DNA from: Acetobacter tropicalis
GTDB lineage: Bacteria; Pseudomonadota; Alphaproteobacteria; Acetobacterales; Acetobacteraceae
Reading direction: 5' to 3'
NCBI RefSeq assembly: GCF_001580915.1
Contig: NZ_LHZQ01000219.1
Location: 1-64,000 of the forward strand
DNA: 64,000 nucleotides
The notes under the pieces were generated by a model. It was not told where the DNA came from, did no database searches, and saw only the letters and a program-made list of their open reading frames with translations. Each line of letters opens with the position of its first letter. The stretch's first letter is position 1. Shown here in pieces: positions 15,125 through 25,200 of the stretch. The position numbers and the translations under genes were made by a program.

Positions 15125-15619
15125 ATGGAACCTGACCACGATTCCGCTAACAGTCATGAGATCCGCCGGTCCTTCGGGTATCGGTTGGCTCGTCTTGCGT
15201 CCGTCTGGCGGCGCGAGATTGACGCTGATTTGCGGGAATTCGGGCTGACGGACGCAACGTGGCGGCCCATTTATTATCTCAATTTTTCATCGGCACCGGT
15301 CAGGCAGACTGATCTGGCCCGCTCCCTCTCTCTGGAAGCGCCTTCGCTTGTGAGGCTTCTGGACGTGCTGGAGAAACGCGGCTTTATTGTGCGTGAAATT
15401 GATGAGGATGACCGCCGTTCCAAACTTGTCAGTATTACGGAAGAAGGGCGGGATGTTGCCGCTCTGGTCAGCCGCGCGGCTGACGAGGTGACAAACCGTC
15501 TGACAGCGGATGTCTCTTCCGCCGAACTGGAGCAATGCTGCCATATTTTTGACCGTGTGGAACAGGCCGCCGTTGGACAGAAAGAGCCACCGGCAAGTGA
15601 GAGAGAACACGCACGGTGA
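15125..15619 (+). CDS. MarR-family transcriptional regulator
   Basis: 164 residues with the family layout: an N-terminal dimer helix, the winged helix-turn-helix (RQTDLARSLSLEAPSLVRLLDVLEKRG, residues about 59-85) and the wing with DEDDRRSKLVSIT, the conserved DRR segment. It probably represses the efflux genes that follow 22 bp downstream and responds to an aromatic or antimicrobial ligand, as SlyA/MarR relatives do. The ligand is not deducible. Confidence 0.85.
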   Translation: MEPDHDSANSHEIRRSFGYRLARLASVWRREIDADLREFGLTDATWRPIYYLNFSSAPVRQTDLARSLSLEAPSLVRLLDVLEKRGFIVREIDEDDRRSKLVSITEEGRDVAALVSRAADEVTNRLTADVSSAELEQCCHIFDRVEQAAVGQKEPPASEREHAR

Positions 15620-15641
15620 TGGTTGGAATGAGAATGGCGTC

Positions 15642-15836
15642 ATGCTGACGGAATTCAATCTCTTCGGCGTTTTTATGGCGCCGGTTGTTGTCTATGCGCT
15701 GGCGGCGTTGCCGCTCACGATGTTCGTACGCTTTGCGCTGTGGTGGAGCGGCCTGCTGGGCTGGTTCTGGCATATCGCTCTGTTCGAAGTCTCTCTTTAC
15801 GTGTGTATTTTCTGCTTGCTGATCCTGTACGTCTGA
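15642..15836 (+). CDS. DUF1656/AaeX-like small membrane protein
   Basis: 64 residues with two transmembrane helices and the opening MLTEFNLFGVFMAPVVVYA that characterises DUF1656. These proteins accompany aromatic-acid efflux pumps (AaeX in E. coli). Start 15642 is preferred over an upstream frame overlapping marR. In most operons this gene stands between a FUSC-type inner-membrane protein and an HlyD-type protein. Here the FUSC gene is absent. Confidence 0.8.
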   Translation: MLTEFNLFGVFMAPVVVYALAALPLTMFVRFALWWSGLLGWFWHIALFEVSLYVCIFCLLILYV

Positions 15837-15867
15837 TCCCCCCGATAAAGGCTTTTGAGTCCCCGCA

Positions 15868-16779
15868 ATGCCCCTTCTGCGCACCCTGATACGAGTTATT
15901 CTGACCTTAGCGGTCGTCTCACTGGCTATTGTTCTGGGGATAACCCTCTGGAACGTGTACATGATTGCACCTTGGACCCGTGACGGGCGTGTGCGTGTGT
16001 ACGTGGTTAACGTTGCGCCTGAAGTGGCAGGAACGGTGGTTCAGATCCCTGTGGTGGACAACCAGTTTGTCCATAAGGGTGACCCTTTGTTCGTGCTGGA
16101 CCCCGTGCGTTTCCGTCTGGCGATTCGGGAAGCGCAGGCCCGGCTGGATGGGGCATTGGAAGACCTGAAGCTCAAGCGTAATGACGCACGCCGCCGTATG
16201 GGGCTAGGTGGCATTGTGTCAGCGGAAGAGCAGGAAGTCTTCAACTCCAACGTGGCAACCCAGATTGCCGCAGTGGATGCCGCCCGCGCGGCTCTGGATC
16301 TGGCAAAGCTGAACCTCCAGCGTTCCGTGTTGTATTCACCCGTTAATGGTTACGTGACCAACCTGAACGTGCGGGTAGGGGATTACGCTTCTGCCGGGCA
16401 GGCCCGTATGGCCGTGATCGATTCGGACTCCTACTGGGTTTACGGGTATTTTGAAGAAACCAAGATGTGGGGCGTGCATGTGGGTGATGAAGCCCGCGTG
16501 AAGCTGATGGGGTATAAACCTATCCTGACAGGCCATGTTGTCAGTATTGCCCGTGGTATCAGTGACACCAACGGCACCCCCGACAAACTCGGTCTTCAGG
16601 ATGTGAACCCCATCTTTACATGGGTGCGTCTGGCCCAGCGTATTCCGGTACGTATCCATCTGGATCATGTTCCGGATAGTGTCACGCTGGCAGCAGGGAT
16701 GACGGCCACCGTCAGTGTTGGGCCGGAGCCACGTGGACGGCGCGGTAAGCTGACGTCCTGGCTACAAGATCATCTCTGA
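15868..16779 (+). CDS. HlyD/AaeA-type membrane fusion protein of an efflux system
   Basis: 303 residues: one N-terminal membrane helix (about 8-30), then the biotinyl-lipoyl-like half VYVVNVAPEVAGTVVQIPV, a helical hairpin at about 90-160, the second lipoyl half SPVNGYVTNLNVRVGDYASAGQ and the beta-barrel domain SYWVYGYFEETKMWGVHVGD. It bridges an inner-membrane transporter and an outer-membrane channel. TRDGRVR after the helix is typical of the AaeA/EmrA branch. It stands 31 bp after the DUF1656 gene and 19 bp before the NodT gene. Confidence 0.9.
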   Translation: MPLLRTLIRVILTLAVVSLAIVLGITLWNVYMIAPWTRDGRVRVYVVNVAPEVAGTVVQIPVVDNQFVHKGDPLFVLDPVRFRLAIREAQARLDGALEDLKLKRNDARRRMGLGGIVSAEEQEVFNSNVATQIAAVDAARAALDLAKLNLQRSVLYSPVNGYVTNLNVRVGDYASAGQARMAVIDSDSYWVYGYFEETKMWGVHVGDEARVKLMGYKPILTGHVVSIARGISDTNGTPDKLGLQDVNPIFTWVRLAQRIPVRIHLDHVPDSVTLAAGMTATVSVGPEPRGRRGKLTSWLQDHL

Positions 16780-16798
16780 GCGCGACGGGAAACGGGAA

Positions 16799-18313
16799 AT
16801 GAAGCTTCGTCGTCGCCTCGGCCTGTTCATGGCGTCTTCCATGCTGCTTTCGGCCTGCACAGTTGGGCCCAACTATCAGCCTGACCGCATGAAAGTGCCA
16901 GCGCAGTTCAAGGAAGCGGCGGAGGAACACGCCGCCACTCCGGAAGAAATTGCGCATACCAACCAGGAAATGACCGAGTGGTGGTCTTCCTTCAATGACC
17001 CCATGCTGACCAGTCTGGTGCAGCAGGCGATTGAAGGGAACTTTGATCTCCAGATTGCGGGCCAGCGGATTCTGGCGGAACGGGCTATTCGTGATCGGTC
17101 AGCTTCTCAATGGTATCCGCAGATGGATGCCAACATGGGTGGTGGCGATGTTCGGTACTCTCTGAACATTGATAACTGGCCCATTCGGCCAGGTAACCCG
17201 CAGAACCGGCCTGAAGCCTCCATGTTGACATATGGCGCTATGGCCACATGGGAGATGGACGTATTCGGCCGTATCCGCCGGGATGTGGAAGCGCATGAGC
17301 GCGCAGTGGAGGCCTCCATTGAAGGCCGTCGCGCTTTGCTGATGACGCTGCTTTCCGAACTGGCATCTGATTACATGCTGCTGCGGGTAACGCAGTTGCA
17401 GATCCATATTGCCACGGACAATATCCGGGTGGCGAAGGATGCGGTGGATCTGACCAACAAGCTGTATCTGGAAGGCGTGGGCAACACCTTGCAGATTGCA
17501 CAGGCGCAGGCAGAACTCGATTCCCAGATAGCTGCCCGTGAACCCTTGAAAACCCGTGTCTCTCAGATTACGCATGCCATTGCTGTGCTGCTGGGGAAAA
17601 TGCCGGGCGAACTGGAAGATCAGCTTAAGGTCGTTCGGCCCTTGCCTGCGGTGCCAGCGTTCCCCGCTACCATGCCGTCTATCGTGATGGCGAACCGTCC
17701 GGATATTCGGATGGCGGAACGCAAATATGCGCTGGCAACGGCGCAGATTGGGGTGGCTGTGGCCAACCTGTATCCGCACTTTGTTATTCCGTTGACCTTC
17801 AATCCGAACGCATCGGCCATGTACCAGCTCTTTCAGGTGAACGCCATGAGCTGGCAGTTCCTGATGATGGCCAGCTTGCCGCTGATGCACGGTGGTAAAA
17901 TGACGGCGGAAGTTCGCGCCGCTCAGGCATCGGCTGAAGCGGCACGGCTGGAGTATCGGCAGGCGGTGTTGACCGGCTTCAAGGAAGTTGAAGACGCCAT
18001 GGCTGCCTGGCATGATGACATTGAATATGCCGAGCAACTGCATAAGGCTGCGGAAGATAGCGCAACGGCCAGTGAGCGGGCACGCAAGCTCTACGGTGCA
18101 GGGTTGGTGGGCTTTCTGGAAGTGCTGACTACGGAACGCACCACCTTGAACGCCCAGAATCAGGAAGCGCTCGCCAAGTTGGAACGTCTGCGTGATGCCG
18201 TGAACCTTTACACGGCTCTGGGCGCTGGGTGGAAAGGCGTGCCGCTCACCAACACCACTCTTCCTGTTTCTCTTGAAACCCAGAATGTGTTAGCGCGGGC
18301 CTTCAAACAGTAA
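16799..18313 (+). CDS. NodT/OprM-family outer-membrane efflux lipoprotein
   Basis: 504 residues. The signal peptide ends in a lipobox (MLLSAC, lipidated Cys20) followed by TVGPNYQPD, the usual start of mature OprM-like channels. Two outer-membrane-efflux repeats follow, with long helices such as SEARA/AAEAARLEYRQAVLTGFKEVEDA in the second. It forms the trimeric exit duct for the upstream HlyD protein. A strong terminator pair lies about 400 bp downstream. Confidence 0.92.
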   Translation: MKLRRRLGLFMASSMLLSACTVGPNYQPDRMKVPAQFKEAAEEHAATPEEIAHTNQEMTEWWSSFNDPMLTSLVQQAIEGNFDLQIAGQRILAERAIRDRSASQWYPQMDANMGGGDVRYSLNIDNWPIRPGNPQNRPEASMLTYGAMATWEMDVFGRIRRDVEAHERAVEASIEGRRALLMTLLSELASDYMLLRVTQLQIHIATDNIRVAKDAVDLTNKLYLEGVGNTLQIAQAQAELDSQIAAREPLKTRVSQITHAIAVLLGKMPGELEDQLKVVRPLPAVPAFPATMPSIVMANRPDIRMAERKYALATAQIGVAVANLYPHFVIPLTFNPNASAMYQLFQVNAMSWQFLMMASLPLMHGGKMTAEVRAAQASAEAARLEYRQAVLTGFKEVEDAMAAWHDDIEYAEQLHKAAEDSATASERARKLYGAGLVGFLEVLTTERTTLNAQNQEALAKLERLRDAVNLYTALGAGWKGVPLTNTTLPVSLETQNVLARAFKQ

Positions 18314-18720: not shown

Positions 18721-18753
18721 ATCCCCCGCTTTTTATGAGCGGGGGATTTTTTC
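18721..18753 (+). terminator. Rho-independent terminator of the efflux operon
   Basis: ATCCCCCGCT at 18721-18730 pairs perfectly with AGCGGGGGAT at 18738-18747, followed by a T run. The A run before the stem lets it also act on the opposite strand. Confidence 0.9.
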
Positions 18754-18802: not shown

Positions 18803-19330
18803 TTATTTTTTGGGCGCGCGTACAGCCGTCACTTCAATTTCGATCAGCCAGCCGGGGTTGGCGAGTTGTGCCACGGCGAAAGCAGAGCGAACCGGCAGAT
18901 TGGGCTGTTTCGCTGTGCCGAAATACTGGGTGTAGGCTTTCATCATGCCCGCAAAATCAAGCTGTTTTGTGCGTGGGTCGGCCACCATGTAGATATGCAT
19001 CTGCACAACGTCCCCCATGGTCAGGTTCAGCTTTTTCAGCTCAGCTTCAATGCGCTGAAGAGAGGCAAGCGTCTGGGTCTGCGTGTCACCATAGGCTTCA
19101 AGGCTTTTGGGCGGAGCAGTTTTATCCTGCACCGGGGCCCCCATGCCGCTCAGGTAGATTGTGCTCGCTCCAGCCGGAACCTCAATGGAGGTCGAGATCG
19201 GAAAATCGCCTTCGGCATGACGCACAATGCCCGTTTCAGCCTTGGCCACCAGCGGCATGGCCGTTGTGGCGGCAACCAGCGCCAGCGTACCAGCGGAAAG
19301 AAGAGTTTTGGAAAGGCGCACGTTATTCAT
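18803..19330 (-). CDS. Exported RidA-family (YjgF) imine deaminase
   Basis: 175 residues. Unlike ordinary cytosolic RidA it has a signal peptide (MNNVRLSKTLLSAGTLALVAATTAMPLVAKA, cleavage after AKA), so it should act in the periplasm. The RidA core follows: STIYLSGMGAPV, TLASLQRIEAELKKLNLTMGDVVQMHIYM, RSAFAVAQLANPGWLIEIEVTAV. RidA proteins hydrolyse reactive imines and enamines to ketones and ammonia. The start overlaps the end of the cytochrome c gene, and an amine oxidase gene is first in the operon, so it probably hydrolyses the imine that enzyme makes. Confidence 0.85.
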   Translation of the reverse strand: MNNVRLSKTLLSAGTLALVAATTAMPLVAKAETGIVRHAEGDFPISTSIEVPAGASTIYLSGMGAPVQDKTAPPKSLEAYGDTQTQTLASLQRIEAELKKLNLTMGDVVQMHIYMVADPRTKQLDFAGMMKAYTQYFGTAKQPNLPVRSAFAVAQLANPGWLIEIEVTAVRAPKK

Positions 19331-19742
19331 CCTCTACAGTCAGGTGAGGCCGCATGGCGGCGACGTCTTCAGGCTTGAGCGTGTCAGTATAATGGTTGCC
19401 AAAGTGCGTGCGAACGTAATTCACAACATTGGCCACCTGCTGGTCATTCAGCGCCACACCAAACCATGGCATGCCACCAAATCCGTTCAGCACCACATAG
19501 GCCGGGTATTCGGCACTTTGTAGCTTGGGGTTTCCTGCCAGCGCGGGAAAGCGGGCTCCAGCGCCTTCCGCGCCTTTGCCGTCCGGCATATGGCACCCTT
19601 GGCAGACATGTTTGTAAACCGCAGCACCATCGGGCAGCGTCTGCACTTTGCCTTCAACTGAGCTGGCGCTGTCAGCATAGGCGACAACCGGCATAAGGGC
19701 GGAGGAGAGCATAAGGGCGGAGAGAAGGAGAATGTGACGCAT
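19323..19742 (-). CDS. Small exported cytochrome c
   Basis: 139 residues: a signal peptide (MRHILLLSALMLSSALMPVVAYA), then one heme site CQGCH at residues 47-51 and a likely axial Met in FGGMPWFG near 91, the pattern of class I cytochromes. ATG 19742 overlaps the amine oxidase stop codon as TGATG, and the gene's own end overlaps the RidA start, so all three are translationally coupled. It is the likely electron acceptor of the neighbouring flavoenzyme. Confidence 0.88.
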   Translation of the reverse strand: MRHILLLSALMLSSALMPVVAYADSASSVEGKVQTLPDGAAVYKHVCQGCHMPDGKGAEGAGARFPALAGNPKLQSAEYPAYVVLNGFGGMPWFGVALNDQQVANVVNYVRTHFGNHYTDTLKPEDVAAMRPHLTVEDE

Positions 19743-21340
19743 CAGGCGGCTCCCAGTGCGCGTTTGTGCAGACGGGTGACGGCATCCAGCGCGGAGAGGA
19801 TGGCTCCTTCCTGCCAGCAACCAATGTAGGACGCGTGTTCACCAGCCAGAACAACCCGGTTATCGACACTGCACAGTGTTTTGTAGTGGGTTTTGCGGGC
19901 CTCTTCCGTCCACATGGAGCAGCAGCCGAGAGTCCAGGGCACGCGGCTCCAGGCAAAGCTGACGCCGTTTGAAAACTCCTTGCGGTATTGCGGGTGAATG
20001 GCTGTACCTTGGGCCAGGGCGCGTTCAAGCCGTTCCTTGGGGGGCATGCCTGCAAAATCATACGCGGCGGGGCCAAACATGTAGCCCCCCAGCAGAACCG
20101 CCGGTCCTTTGGAGAAAATACCGTGGCTGGGGTAGGAGATCTGGCTGATCTGCTGGTCAGTAAAGCTGATGCCGCCATAAATCTGATCATCTTCCTCCCA
20201 GAAGCGGCGTTTGAATTCCATGCCCATCTTGACCGAGGACGCATAGGGCACGGCCAGAATGGCGGCTTTCATGGCGTCACTCACCTGCACATCCAGCTGG
20301 GACAGAACGGAGAGAGGAATGGTGCAGACGCAGTAATCGGCCTGGGCCTGGCGCACCGCCCCACCGTTGGCCATATCATTATAGGTAACGGTCACGCCTT
20401 TCTGGTCCTGATGCAGCGCTATGACCTTGCAGTTGAACGTGATCAGATCCTTCACCTGCCGGGTGAAGCCCTTGCCAATCTGGTCCATGCCGCCAACTGG
20501 CTGGAACATGGTGGTCTGCATATCCAGCCGTTCATGAAAGGCCATCCAGTTCCATAGGCCGGACTTCATGACATCGTCCCGTGCGAACAGATCGGAGGGA
20601 ATGGGCGCGCCATCAATGCCGCCTCCTTGCGGGCGGGCGAAGCCACGGCGAAGGGAACTGATGTTTCCTTTCTTGTAGGTGTAGTCTTTTCCCAACCCAC
20701 CCCAAGATTTCATGGCCGTGCGCAGATGGTCGCGTTCGTCCTCGCTGACAAGATCGTCCAGCTTGTGCTGATCAATGGCTTTGGCAATCAGTTCGGCCGT
20801 GAAGCCAGTGAAATCCGATGCAAATTCCCGATAACGGACGGCCTTGCCGCCAAAGGCTCCCGTGGAATGCAGCCACGAGTTATGATTGAGCTCGATAAAC
20901 GGTTCGAGCTGGATGCCAAATTCCCGACAATAATGAAGGAGCCCCTGATGATGATAGGGGATACGCCACGGGCCGGGGTTGATGTAATTGCCCGGCGCAA
21001 ACCCCACTTTTTGCGTGGCTCCGCCCAGTTCTGTTACGGTATCGCCACCGCGCAGGCTGATGTTGCGGCCACCACTGCGGCTCTGAAATTCAAGAATCTG
21101 AACATCGTAGCCGGCTTTTCGTAATTCATAGGCGGAGAGCATGCCCGAAAGGCCAGACCCCAGCACGAGAACCTTGGTTCCTTTTTTGGCTCCGCCAAGG
21201 GCTGGCGGCCCTTTGAAATCCGTTCCCTGAGCATGGCCAAGACTGGTCATGGCCTGATAAAGGGCGGCGCTTCCTGCCAAAGTGCCAATGCGCGTCAGCA
21301 ACTGCCTGCGGGTGGGAGGAGAAGAATGAGCTGATGGCAT
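19742..21340 (-). CDS. Tat-exported flavin amine oxidase/dehydrogenase
   Basis: 532 residues. A twin-arginine signal (PTRRQLLTRIG, arginines 11 and 12) precedes the FAD-binding motif GSGLSG at 61-66 and ILEFQSRSGGRN, the dinucleotide motif of the flavin monoamine oxidase superfamily. The C-terminal FAD segment is RVVLAGEHASYIGCWQEGAILSALDAV. Such enzymes oxidise amines or amino acids to imines. Export folded with FAD to the periplasm and coupling to a cytochrome c gene suggest it works as a dehydrogenase feeding the respiratory chain rather than reducing O2. The substrate is unknown. Confidence 0.85.
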   Translation of the reverse strand: MPSAHSSPPTRRQLLTRIGTLAGSAALYQAMTSLGHAQGTDFKGPPALGGAKKGTKVLVLGSGLSGMLSAYELRKAGYDVQILEFQSRSGGRNISLRGGDTVTELGGATQKVGFAPGNYINPGPWRIPYHHQGLLHYCREFGIQLEPFIELNHNSWLHSTGAFGGKAVRYREFASDFTGFTAELIAKAIDQHKLDDLVSEDERDHLRTAMKSWGGLGKDYTYKKGNISSLRRGFARPQGGGIDGAPIPSDLFARDDVMKSGLWNWMAFHERLDMQTTMFQPVGGMDQIGKGFTRQVKDLITFNCKVIALHQDQKGVTVTYNDMANGGAVRQAQADYCVCTIPLSVLSQLDVQVSDAMKAAILAVPYASSVKMGMEFKRRFWEEDDQIYGGISFTDQQISQISYPSHGIFSKGPAVLLGGYMFGPAAYDFAGMPPKERLERALAQGTAIHPQYRKEFSNGVSFAWSRVPWTLGCCSMWTEEARKTHYKTLCSVDNRVVLAGEHASYIGCWQEGAILSALDAVTRLHKRALGAA

Positions 21341-21550: not shown

Positions 21551-23923
21551 TTAACGCGTCCAGCTCCAGTTCCGTATTTCCGGCATATCCTCTCCATATT
21601 CGCACACATAGCGTTGGTGCTCAGCCAGTTTGTCCAGCACGGCCTGATGGGCGTAAGCCGCTTTCGAGGCCAGTCTGGGTACGCGCCGGATGACGTTGGA
21701 CACCAGATGGAAGCGATCCAGATGGTTGCGCACTGTCATGTCAAACGGGGTGGTGGTTGTGCCTTCCTCACGGAACCCGTGCACATGGAAGTTGATGGCG
21801 TTCCGGCGCTTGTAAATAAGCTGATGCACCAGAGCAGGATAGCCGTGGAATGCGAAAATAACCGGCTTGTCGGTTGTGAACAGGGTATCAAACGTGGCGT
21901 CTGGCAGGCCGTGCGGGTGCTGGTCTGGCGTTTGCAGCGTCATGAGATCAACCACGTTGACCACACGGATTTTCAGGTCCGGAATATGTTTGTTGAGAAT
22001 GCTGACAGCCGCCAGTGCTTCCAGTGTCGGCACATCCCCCGCGCAACCGATAATCACGTCCGGTTCTGAGCCTTTATCGTTACTGGCCCATTCCCAGATG
22101 CCAATGCCCTGCTGGCAATGGGTGAGTGCGGCATTCATGTCCAGCCATTGAAGTTCCGGCTGTTTGCCCGCCACAATCACGTTGATACGGTTGCGGCTGC
22201 GCAGGCAATGGTCTGTTATACACAGCAGCGTGTTGGCATCCGGCGGCAGATAGATCCGCACCGTTTCGGCTTTTTTGGTCACCATGTGGTTGAGAAAGCC
22301 GGGGTCCTGATGGCTGAACCCGTTATGGTCCTGCCGCCAGACGTGAGAGGTCAGCAGATAATTCAGCGAGGCAATAGGTTGCCGCCACTCGGTTTCAGAA
22401 GCTGTTTTCAACCATTTTGCATGCTGGTTAACCATGGAATCCACAATGTGGATGAACGCTTCATAACAGGACATGAAGCCATGACGGCCCGTCAGAAGAT
22501 AGCCTTCCAGCCAGCCCTGGCACGTATGTTCGCTTAGAATTTCCATCACGTGGCCATCAGGGGAGAGATGGTCATCATAGGAATAGGTTTCCGCGTTCCA
22601 CGCACGGTTGGTCACATCCAGAACGGCGTTCAGGCGGTTCGAGTTGTTTTCGTCCGGGGCCACAATCCGGAAGTTCCGTTTATCCGCATTGGCGGCCATG
22701 ACATCTTTCAACCACGAGCCCAGAATGCGTGTGGTTTCCGCTACGGTCTGGCCTGGGGCTGTGATCTGCACCGCATGGGTGCGGAAGTCGGGCAGACGCA
22801 GGGGCCGCAGATGGGTGCCGCCATTGGCATAGGGCGTGGCGCTCATGCGTTTGTCGCCCTTGGGCGCAAGGGCAGCAAGTTCCGGTTTTAATGCGCCTTC
22901 GGGTGTGAACAGATCATCCGGTTTGTAGGACCGCATCCATTCTTCAAGCATCGCCAGATGGCCGGGCTTGCTCATATTGTCCACCGGCACCTGATGGGAG
23001 CGCCAGTACCCTTCCGTGCGCAGACCATCAACCGTTTTGGGGCCGGTCCAGCCTTTGGGGCTGCGCAGCACGATCATGGGCCATGCGGGGCGGGTGGTGT
23101 CTCCCTGTGTGCGGGCCTTTTCCTGAATGGCGCTGATGCTGGCAAACGCCTGATCCATGGCTGTGGCCATGGCCTGATGCATGGGATCAGGTTCATGTCC
23201 TTCCACAAAAATGGGGTCATACCCGCAGCCTTTCAGGAAATCTCTCAGCTCGGGCTTGGGAATGCGGGCCAGAATGGTGGGGTTGGCAATCTTGTAGCCA
23301 TTTAGGTGCAGAATGGGCAGCACTGCCCCGTCTGTCCTGGGGTCAAGAAACTTGTTGGAATGCCAGGATGTGGCCAGTGGACCCGTTTCTGCTTCTCCAT
23401 CACCGATCACGCAGGCTACAACCAGATCAGGATGGTCAAAAGCCGCGCCATAAGCGTGGGAGAGGCTGTAGCCCAGTTCTCCGCCTTCATGAATGGAGCC
23501 AGGCGTGGTTGCCGCGGCATGGCTGGGGATGCCGCCCGGGAACGAGAACTGGCGGAAGAGGCGGGTCATACCCTCTTCATCCTGCGTTACGTCCGGAAAA
23601 TATTCTGTGTAAGTGCCTTCCATCCATGTGGAGGCAATCAGCCCCGGAGCGCCATGACCCGGCCCCGCGATGAACAGGATGTTGCGGTCCTGCGCGCGGA
23701 TAATACGGTTAAGGTGGAGCCAGATGAAGTTCAGGCCGGGCGTTGTGCCCCAATGCCCCAGCAGGCGTTTCTTGATGTCCTCCAGCTTCAGTGGCTCACG
23801 CAGTAAAGCATTTTTCAGCAGGTAGATCTGACCAACCGAGAGATAATTGGCAGCGTGCCACCACCTGTTGAACAGGGCCAGATCTGCGGCTGAAAGCGGT
23901 GCTGAGGGAGTTTGCGTGCTCAT
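21551..23923 (-). CDS. xfp: Xylulose-5-phosphate/fructose-6-phosphate phosphoketolase
   Basis: 790 residues, the normal length. Thiamine-diphosphate enzyme motifs are clear: GPGHGAPG near residue 86, [32 protein letters not shown] near 170-185 and [11 protein letters not shown]. It splits xylulose 5-phosphate or fructose 6-phosphate with phosphate into acetyl phosphate and glyceraldehyde 3-phosphate or erythrose 4-phosphate. AAGGA stands six bases before ATG 23923. It follows ackA by 47 bp on the same strand; together they give a cytosolic route from sugar phosphates to acetate with one ATP, known in acetic acid bacteria. Confidence 0.95.
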
Positions 23924-23970
23924 GGAGTGTCCTTTTTCAGGAAAGAGGCCGGAAGCAGGAGGCGCAAGGA

Positions 23971-25200
23971 TCAGGCCGGAGAGGCTTTGGCCAGCAGATC
24001 CAGCGTTGAGATGACATCCTTGCAGATCATCAGTTCTTCATTTGTTGGCTCCACGCGGATGATGACGGAACTGTCGGGCGTGCTGATAATGGGGGCATGG
24101 CGCTGGTTGGCTTCCGCATCCAGGCGCACACCAACCCAGTGCAGGGCAGTGCACACCTCTGCACGGAGGGCGGCATCATTCTCGCCAATGCCTGCGGTGA
24201 AGATAAGCCCATCCAACCCTTGCAGGATGGCCGTAAGGGCACCGATTTCCTGCACCACGCGATAGGCGAACAGATTGAGGGCTTCCCGCGCATTGGCGGC
24301 TTGTGGAGTGGACGCCTTTGCCTGCTCGCGGAGGGAGCGCACATCTGCCGCAAGACCGGACACGCCCAGCAGGCCGGATTGATGGTAGAGGACATCAACA
24401 ATGGTATGCCATCCCGCGCCTTCTTCCTGCATCATGTAGAGCAGGACCCCTGGGTCCAGCGCTCCGCAGCGCGTGCCCATCATCAGTCCGTCCAGCGCGG
24501 AGAACCCCATGGTGGTTTCAATGCTCTGGCCGTTTTTCAGGGCGCACAGGCTGGCCCCGCTGCCCAGATGCGCAACAATGGTTCGGCCCTGCGCAAGTTT
24601 GGGATCAATCTCGCGCAGGTGGGAGGAGATATAGGCGTAGGAAAGGCCATGAAAACCGTAGCGCCGTATGCCTGCCTGATCGTATCGGCGGGGAAGGGGT
24701 AGCAGTTTGGCCAGCGGGGGCATGGTGTGGTGGAAGCCTGTATCAAAACAGGCAATCTGCGGAAGATCAGGGCGTTCGCGCGCAATCACTTTGATCGGGG
24801 CGAGTGTAACGGTCTGATGCAGGGGGGCGAAGGGCGTCAGCTTTTCCAGTTGCGCCAGAATATCCGGCGTAATGCGAACCGGAGCGATAAAATCAGGGCC
24901 GCCATGAACCACACGGTGGCCCACAGCCACCACTTTTCCACCGTCAAGATGGCTTTCTATCCATTTGAAAAGCGGACCAAGCGAAAACGGGGCCGTTTTA
25001 TCCGTATGGTCTGGCTGACTCCAGGTACAATCCGCCAGAACGGTGCCTGTGTTGTCCACAGCATGAAAGCGCGGGGAGTCGGGCGTTGTTTCAACTGCGC
25101 CATGTGCCAGCACGGCTGGAGCAGCGTGTGCCTGCAAACGGAACAACGTGAATTTCAGGCTGGATGATCCGCAATTGAAGGCCAGTATGACGTCTGACAA
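23971..25200 (-). CDS. ackA: Acetate kinase
   Basis: 409 residues. Family motifs: [13 protein letters not shown] at the N-terminus, [20 protein letters not shown], the phosphate-binding [12 protein letters not shown] and [10 protein letters not shown]. It interconverts acetyl phosphate plus ADP with acetate plus ATP. The start is TTG 25200 with GGGAG eight bases upstream; no ATG is available at the proper N-terminus. It is first in an operon with phosphoketolase, which supplies its acetyl phosphate. Confidence 0.95.

Follow-up and report, generated by a model that had tools for sequence, protein, structure and literature searches.

In the window analysed here (the 64,000 nucleotides of Acetobacter tropicalis contig NZ_LHZQ01000219.1, assembly GCF_001580915.1, positions 1 to 64,000 of the forward strand), three overlapping genes on the minus strand span positions 18803-21340 and, as read from the open reading frames (ORFs), encode an FAD enzyme (lao), a cytochrome c and a Rid-family protein (ridA). 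We consider it probable that this trio encodes a periplasmic L-amino acid dehydrogenase module, in which a flavoenzyme exported through the twin-arginine translocation (Tat) pathway uses the cytochrome c as its acceptor and the Rid protein hydrolyzes the imine product. By sequence comparison, the trio is orthologous to the lao-cccA-ridA cluster known from Gluconacetobacter diazotrophicus, and the cluster itself is not new; what is added here is the fixed link between the enzyme and its cytochrome, the apparent sharing of one compartment by enzyme and Rid, and the question of the electron sink. Papers are cited by PubMed Central accession, each for the part of its text that was available.

The lao, cytochrome c and ridA genes

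The lao gene (19742-21340, minus strand) encodes a protein of 532 amino acids with a PF01593 domain across the whole protein (residues 64-524, E 1.9e-52). Its stop shares 1 base with the start of the cytochrome c gene (cccA ortholog; 19323-19742, minus strand; 139 amino acids), which in turn overlaps ridA (18803-19330, minus strand; 175 amino acids) by 8 bases. The cytochrome matches PF13442 (E 4.5e-13) and PF00034 (E 2.2e-10; the query carried one extra upstream codon) and would bind one heme, with a single CXXCH motif (CQGCH, 19590-19604, minus strand) followed further on by a candidate axial Met in GGMPWFG, as in class I cytochromes c. RidA matches PF01042 (E 1.8e-16) and is predicted to be an exported imine/enamine deaminase. 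The N-terminus of the lao product, TRRQLLTRIGTLAGSAALYQAMTSLGHA, is of the twin-arginine type, with TRRQLL, an uncharged stretch and GHA within approximately residues 1-38 (21227-21340, minus strand), and its twin arginine is invariant across 14 aligned relatives. The N-termini of the cytochrome, MRHILLLSALMLSSALMPVVAYA, and of RidA, MNNVRLSKTLLSAGTLALVAATTAMPLVAKA, the latter with a signal peptide of approximately residues 1-31 (19238-19330, minus strand), are of the Sec type. These calls are heuristic, made by eye and with simple rules on charge and hydrophobicity. A sequence-only reading of this DNA had described three overlapping genes with a Tat signal on the flavoenzyme and Sec signals on the other two, and the ORFs, Pfam matches and N-termini bear this out.

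The same reading had called the enzyme an amine dehydrogenase, a designation that needs correction. Among solved structures, the top phmmer match is the L-amino acid oxidase (LAAO) of Rhodococcus opacus (2jae, E 1.8e-86), followed by vertebrate LAAOs. An AlphaFold2 model of the lao product (LAO), built with 14 relatives (mean pLDDT 83.9), likewise had 2jae as its top Foldseek match, with 35% identity over the fold, and the 31 best fold matches were all LAAOs or the related L-glutamate and L-lysine oxidases. A NicA2-like generic amine dehydrogenase as the closest relative was rejected, since LAAOs lead by both sequence and fold; NicA2 was not named among the 60 of 78 PDB matches listed or the 50 of 1916 fold matches listed. 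By sequence and modelled fold, then, the enzyme is grouped with the L-amino acid oxidases rather than with generic amine dehydrogenases, and because of this placement its substrates are probably L-amino acids rather than amines in general. The closest named relative is from Acetobacter senegalensis, with an LAO 99% identical (L001), among the 80 of 186 relatives taken from named genomes.

The R. opacus enzyme carries an Arg, a Lys and a Trp identical to those of the window LAO at aligned positions. Two of these residues, Arg126 (codon 20963-20965, minus strand) and Lys371 (codon 20228-20230, minus strand), are kept in all 96 rows of the LAO tree described below as well as in R. opacus LAAO. 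Arg126, which matches R. opacus Arg84, presumably binds the substrate carboxylate, and Lys371 is expected to lie near flavin N5. The equivalent lysine is retained almost throughout the superfamily, by oxidases and dehydrogenases alike (PMC12224317), and Lys371 therefore cannot separate the two. In contrast to our favoured reading of the window enzyme, R. opacus LAAO is known as an oxidase, also in the account of PMC5053998.

Among solved structures, the window Rid is most similar to PSPTO3006 (E 4.6e-31) and PFL1385 (E 3.4e-26; PDB 9bka and 9bkc), two Pseudomonas proteins of the Rid3 group, and on this basis we tentatively call it Rid3-like. In vitro, PFL_1385 and PSPTO_3006 quench the imines that snake LAAO forms from L-amino acids, strongly lowering the imine from Leu, Gln, Phe and Met and that from His by ~60% (PMC5619798); no word in its available text starts with "signal" or "periplasm". 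Arg148 of the window protein (codon 18887-18889, minus strand) is the equivalent of the catalytic Arg105 of RidA, and an Arg stands at this position in all 119 aligned LAO-linked Rid proteins.

In the sugarcane bacterium G. diazotrophicus PAL5, the three orthologous genes lie in identical order (GDI2456-2454; PMC5053998). Two Tn5 insertions in lao abolished indole-3-acetic acid (IAA) and left tryptophan in the medium, and the one insertion examined lowered the transcripts of all three genes (PMC5053998). Cytochrome c maturation (ccm) mutants of this bacterium make IAA at ~5% of the wild-type level, as quoted in PMC5053998, or at 10% (PMC2765452). One locus in our collection (L084) carries the three forward quantitative PCR primers printed in PMC5053998, and the window proteins are identical to those of this locus at 82% (LAO), 65% (cytochrome) and 68% (Rid, residues 35-172) of positions. 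The G. diazotrophicus cluster comes from a sister genus and also differs in how it has been described: in the available text of PMC5053998 the enzyme is treated as an oxidase, the roles of its partners are left open and export is mentioned for the enzyme only, whereas all three window genes carry export signals.

A literature search on LAAO, RidA, cytochrome and operon found only PMC5053998. Clustering of RidA and Rid3 genes with those for FAD amine oxidases had been noted earlier (PMC4433059), and a paper on Chlamydomonas names the bacterial lao-cccA-ridA cluster and describes a periplasmic LAO1 together with LAO2/RIDA (PMC10805672). Like the window trio, that system pairs an extracytoplasmic LAAO with a Rid protein, and its LAO1 converts tryptophan to indole-3-pyruvic acid on the way to IAA; unlike the window trio, it is eukaryotic, is reported to form H2O2 and, in the text available, comes with no mention of a cytochrome c partner (PMC10805672). 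No precedent for an exported Rid was found in the available text of the papers on chitin oxidation and on a hybrid nicotine pathway.

Distribution of the genes and their export signals

An LAO profile found 31 places in 27 genomes of a phylum sample (398 Pseudomonadota genomes, that of the window included), with the cytochrome gene adjoining at 23 of the 31, ridA at 22 and both at 17. When the window Rid was searched over the same genomes, it gave 25 matches in 24 genomes, all of which are among the 27 with LAO; 22 of these matches lie within 0.75 kb of lao, two at ~3.5 kb and one at ~4 kb. The association of the trio in this sample is more than chance.

A larger set of loci was drawn from the named relatives above, from this phylum sample, from 249 genomes of the family (60 with an LAO match; 28 of 64 matches taken as loci), from 149 genomes of one genus, that of genome G533 (30 of 37 matches taken), and from a one-class sample of 229 genomes, three of which had an LAO match. 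Acetobacteraceae and the genus of G533 are thus over-represented. A partner was counted if it scored at least 40 bits and lay on the strand of lao no more than 1.5 kb (cytochrome) or 2.5 kb (Rid) away, with flanks shorter than this at some loci; the resulting table omits L081, L082, L109, the partial copies (L139-L163) and short loci superseded by longer versions. Among its 165 loci, cytochrome and Rid accompany lao at 85, the cytochrome only at 30, Rid only at 34 and neither at 16; six pairs of loci have identical LAO, and deduplication gives 79, 30, 34 and 16 of 159. Relatives with the enzyme and neither partner, which the sequence-only reading had named as evidence against itself, do therefore occur. 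No natural fusion of LAO, cytochrome or Rid was found by profile search among the ORFs of the collected loci.

On a quick maximum-likelihood tree of LAO (96 rows, excluding near-copies above 88% identity with equal gene content), presence of the cytochrome changes twice and presence of Rid 16 times, which makes the cytochrome a fixed companion of the enzyme and Rid a movable one. Sixty-six of the 67 rows of one LAO clade carry the cytochrome, and of the 15 rows with neither partner 14 lie outside this clade and one (L067) inside. Of the triad whose conservation the sequence-only reading had proposed to check, the cytochrome is thus kept and RidA is optional, and an obligate triad was rejected. 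The LAO of L067, with neither partner at its locus, keeps the twin arginine, the Arg, the Lys and a cysteine pair, Cys337 and Cys473 in the window numbering. Both cysteines are present in 62 of the 96 rows, neither in 29 and one of the two in 5; the pair mostly tracks the cytochrome clade and may form a disulfide. As a signature of that clade it was set aside unexplained.

Several variants of the arrangement were also observed. A lao with cytochrome and without Rid occurs at L049, L051, L053, L056-L058 and L064-L066, and several genomes with a Rid-less lao (e.g., A. malorum DsW_057 and A. sacchari) carry the full triad elsewhere. At L174-L176 the cytochrome match is weaker and resembles the latter half of a diheme protein. 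Our rule found a cytochrome at none of the 31 LAO loci examined in the G533 genus, where Rid resembles PFL_1385 and PSPTO_3006. Two of these loci (L200 and L203), each with a lao-rid pair that lacks the cytochrome, do show a low-scoring cytochrome c match (19-21 bits, with CAMCH) encoded on the other strand within 1 kb of lao.

A signal peptide was recognized in 105 of the 119 LAO-linked Rid loci. It is present in every Rid that adjoins a cytochrome (85 of 85, or 79 of 79 without identical LAO sequences) and in 20 of the 34 Rid proteins at cytochrome-less loci. Four Rid proteins look like lipoproteins (L114, L118, L120 and L121), the pattern match of a fifth (L023) being doubtful. The 14 signal-less Rid proteins are all from the G533 genus and belong together in a single clade (4 representatives, Shimodaira-Hasegawa-like approximate likelihood ratio support 100), and at the same 14 loci the LAO region past the twin arginine is interrupted by charged residues. 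A run-length rule agrees with this degradation of the LAO signal at 13 of the 14 loci; it misses L206 and gives false calls at L176 and L210, both with an exported Rid. As read from these N-termini, the joint degradation of both export signals is a single evolutionary event, and so a suggestion, not a statistical result, that Rid and LAO share a compartment. Together with the constant catalytic Arg, the retained Rid signals support the earlier proposal that the imine is hydrolyzed by Rid outside the cytoplasm.

Exported RidA had also been called unusual, and it is uncommon without being unique: exported Rid occurs elsewhere, and Chlamydomonas LAO1 with LAO2/RIDA offers a precedent (PMC10805672). 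In a survey by PF01042 search of 55 genomes, 60 frames of at least 150 amino acids were taken among the matches listed; the signal rule flagged eight, and by eye four looked genuine (L251, L253, L294 and the LAO-linked L301), on which grounds uniqueness was rejected. The first three belong to genomes outside the set with LAO-linked Rid and represent further groups of exported Rid.

Around the trio, a terminator-like hairpin with a T-run on both strands (18721-18747, no strand assigned) was found by pattern scan between ridA and convergent efflux genes; the region holds 3 such matches where shuffled sequence would give 3.7, and the pattern by itself is therefore no evidence. A promoter scan of the region was equally uninformative (1 match against 1.6 expected). 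Phosphoketolase and acetate kinase genes lie upstream on the same strand (21551-25200), and genes for a MarR regulator, a DUF1656 protein, HlyD and an outer-membrane efflux protein lie downstream on the opposite strand in convergent orientation (15125-18313). A second Rid-family gene (PF14588; 61137-61601), without a signal peptide, is situated directly upstream of a 389-amino-acid frame on the same strand.

Electron acceptor and electron sink

The combination of a Tat signal with an adjacent gene for an exported cytochrome c has been described as the signature of cytochrome-dependent dehydrogenases of the flavin amine oxidase (FAO) superfamily (PMC12224317). One mixed pair apart, enzymes of clades 2 and 3 in that study reacted with their own cytochrome at far higher rates than with O2, and clade 1 enzymes reacted modestly with cytochrome and O2 alike (PMC12224317). 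The window enzyme shows both elements, the Tat signal by a heuristic call and an adjoining exported cytochrome c, and so resembles NicA2/CycN, Pnao and other FAO dehydrogenases in superfamily, Tat signal and adjacent exported class I cytochrome c (PMC12224317). It differs from them in its affinities, being closest to LAAOs, whereas that set was assembled from enzymes resembling NicA2; in the available main text of PMC12224317, the phrase "amino acid oxidase" is absent, as are words starting with "Rid". Given the association of the genes, the signature from PMC12224317 and the phenotype of the ccm mutants, it is likely that the electrons go to the co-encoded cytochrome c, as the sequence-only reading had proposed; the step by which the window enzyme itself would reduce the window cytochrome is inferred.

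Where the electrons go from the cytochrome is less evident. A COX1-family search of the window genome (G000, L211-L214; 99.99% complete, 222 contigs) found no recognised cytochrome c oxidase. Its two matches are CyoB of the bo3 ubiquinol oxidase and a degenerate COX1-like protein, whose gene adjoins one resembling ctaB, and the respiratory rationale that the sequence-only reading drew from the lifestyle of acetic acid bacteria is thereby left incomplete. The oxidase set is that reported for Acetobacter, in which taxa cytochrome c is not efficiently re-oxidized; acetic acid bacteria retain c-type cytochromes all the same, with acetous genomes lacking cytochrome c oxidase (PMC10715153), and an incomplete cytochrome c oxidase has been described in A. 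pasteurianus (PMC3751514). The window genome also encodes two proteins of the CCP/MauG family, one of which (L213) is cytochrome c peroxidase-like.

Among the 249 family genomes, 34 have an LAO of at least 53% identity (cytochrome adjacency was checked in part of these, and the copy in G049 has an internal stop). For CtaD, 13 of the 34 show no match beyond the CyoB level, 10 an intermediate and 11 a clear one. No CcoN scored over the cut-off in the 13 CtaD-less genomes, three of which had sub-threshold matches, the strongest of 154 bits (G169). A cytochrome c peroxidase-like protein is encoded in nine of these 13 genomes, in six of the 10 intermediate and in none of the 11 with CtaD; it occurs in 43 of all 249, many of them without LAO. 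A peroxidase as a sink tied to the trio was thus not supported as specific, its distribution not being tied to LAO.

The best solved matches of the window cytochrome are the heme domains of the cytochrome subunits of fructose and alcohol dehydrogenases. Such subunits pass electrons to ubiquinone. It is conceivable from this resemblance that the cytochrome's electrons travel by way of the heme-c subunits of membrane dehydrogenases.

Proposed mechanism and its rivals

If the trio works as proposed, Tat would export the FAD enzyme in folded form, and outside the cytoplasm the enzyme would oxidize L-amino acids to imino acids; by analogy with G. diazotrophicus, its substrates would include at least tryptophan. 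Single electrons would then pass from the reduced flavin to the Sec-exported cytochrome c, with O2 not the main acceptor, and the exported Rid3-like protein would convert the imino acid in the periplasm to the 2-oxo acid and ammonia. The substrate step draws on G. diazotrophicus genetics and the Rid step on relatives in vitro, and both would hold for the window proteins by analogy.

Several points weigh against this mechanism. The papers found report no reduction of cytochrome c by any enzyme of the LAO branch, and the signature was tested in a NicA2-like set to which the window enzyme is less close than it is to the LAAOs. Lys371, a residue linked to O2 activation, is retained, although dehydrogenases retain it too. 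L067 retains the enzyme and neither partner, and the window genome lacks a recognised oxidase for the reduced cytochrome. Finally, the export signals were called heuristically and the tree was built by a quick method.

The strongest rival, which we nevertheless regard as unlikely, is a periplasmic oxidase that uses O2 and forms H2O2, with Rid handling the imine and the cytochrome serving otherwise, for example by feeding a peroxidase that removes the H2O2. The closest characterised structures are indeed oxidases, Lys371 would suit such an enzyme, and cytochrome-less relatives with Tat signal and Rid exist, 20 of 34 of them with the Rid signal kept; the presence of a cytochrome c peroxidase-like protein in a genome with no cytochrome c oxidase found points the same way. 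Against this, the cytochrome stays with its LAO clade in all rows except one, and Tat-cytochrome pairs mostly prefer the cytochrome in vitro, with one mixed pair and clade 1 modest with both acceptors (PMC12224317). The peroxidase, moreover, is missing in four of the 13 CtaD-less LAO genomes and in all 11 with a clear CtaD.

Somewhat less probable again is that the real substrate is an amine-bearing compound imported by a TonB-dependent receptor rather than a free amino acid, with tryptophan oxidation incidental. Receptor genes (PF00593 and PF07715) flank lao at 57 of 164 loci (e.g., L050:2006-4864), a raw count without control for receptor density, and at 30 of the 97 whose flanks extend 3.5 kb or more from lao in each direction; when neighbours were clustered, this receptor was the clear recurrent family, many other clusters resembling shadow frames. 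Such receptors hint that the substrate is imported in some species. No TonB-dependent receptor lies beside the window trio, however; Arg126 and the LAAO fold point to alpha-amino acids, and lao mutants of G. diazotrophicus leave tryptophan unused (PMC5053998). In the genus of G533, the receptor gene was observed to follow the exported Rid at all 17 receptor-bearing loci of this kind; at the signal-less L170 and L171, which have long flanks, none follows Rid and a receptor match lies 2.7 kb off on the other side. A chance or purely positional cluster of partners that do not cooperate, for which the frequent gain and loss of Rid might speak, is very improbable in view of the co-occurrence of LAO and Rid, the gene overlaps, the two-change cytochrome pattern and the joint loss of export signals.

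A wider version of the dehydrogenase reading can be offered only tentatively, at slightly less than an even chance. The LAO clade as a whole could comprise additional cytochrome-c-dependent amino acid dehydrogenases derived from LAAOs, with Rid placed in the compartment of the enzyme, and acetous bacteria without a cytochrome c oxidase would then need another sink, which could be a cytochrome c peroxidase or else a path to ubiquinone through the heme-c subunits of membrane dehydrogenases.

If the dehydrogenase reading is true, some enzymes now filed as L-amino acid oxidases are respiratory dehydrogenases, and their expected product (no H2O2) and use change accordingly. It would also explain why auxin is lost in the ccm mutants of G. 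diazotrophicus. The degradation of both export signals together provides comparative evidence that Rid serves in the compartment where imines are produced. For the acetic acid bacteria, the puzzle of their c-type cytochromes would become testable, the job of the trio being to load electrons onto one of them.

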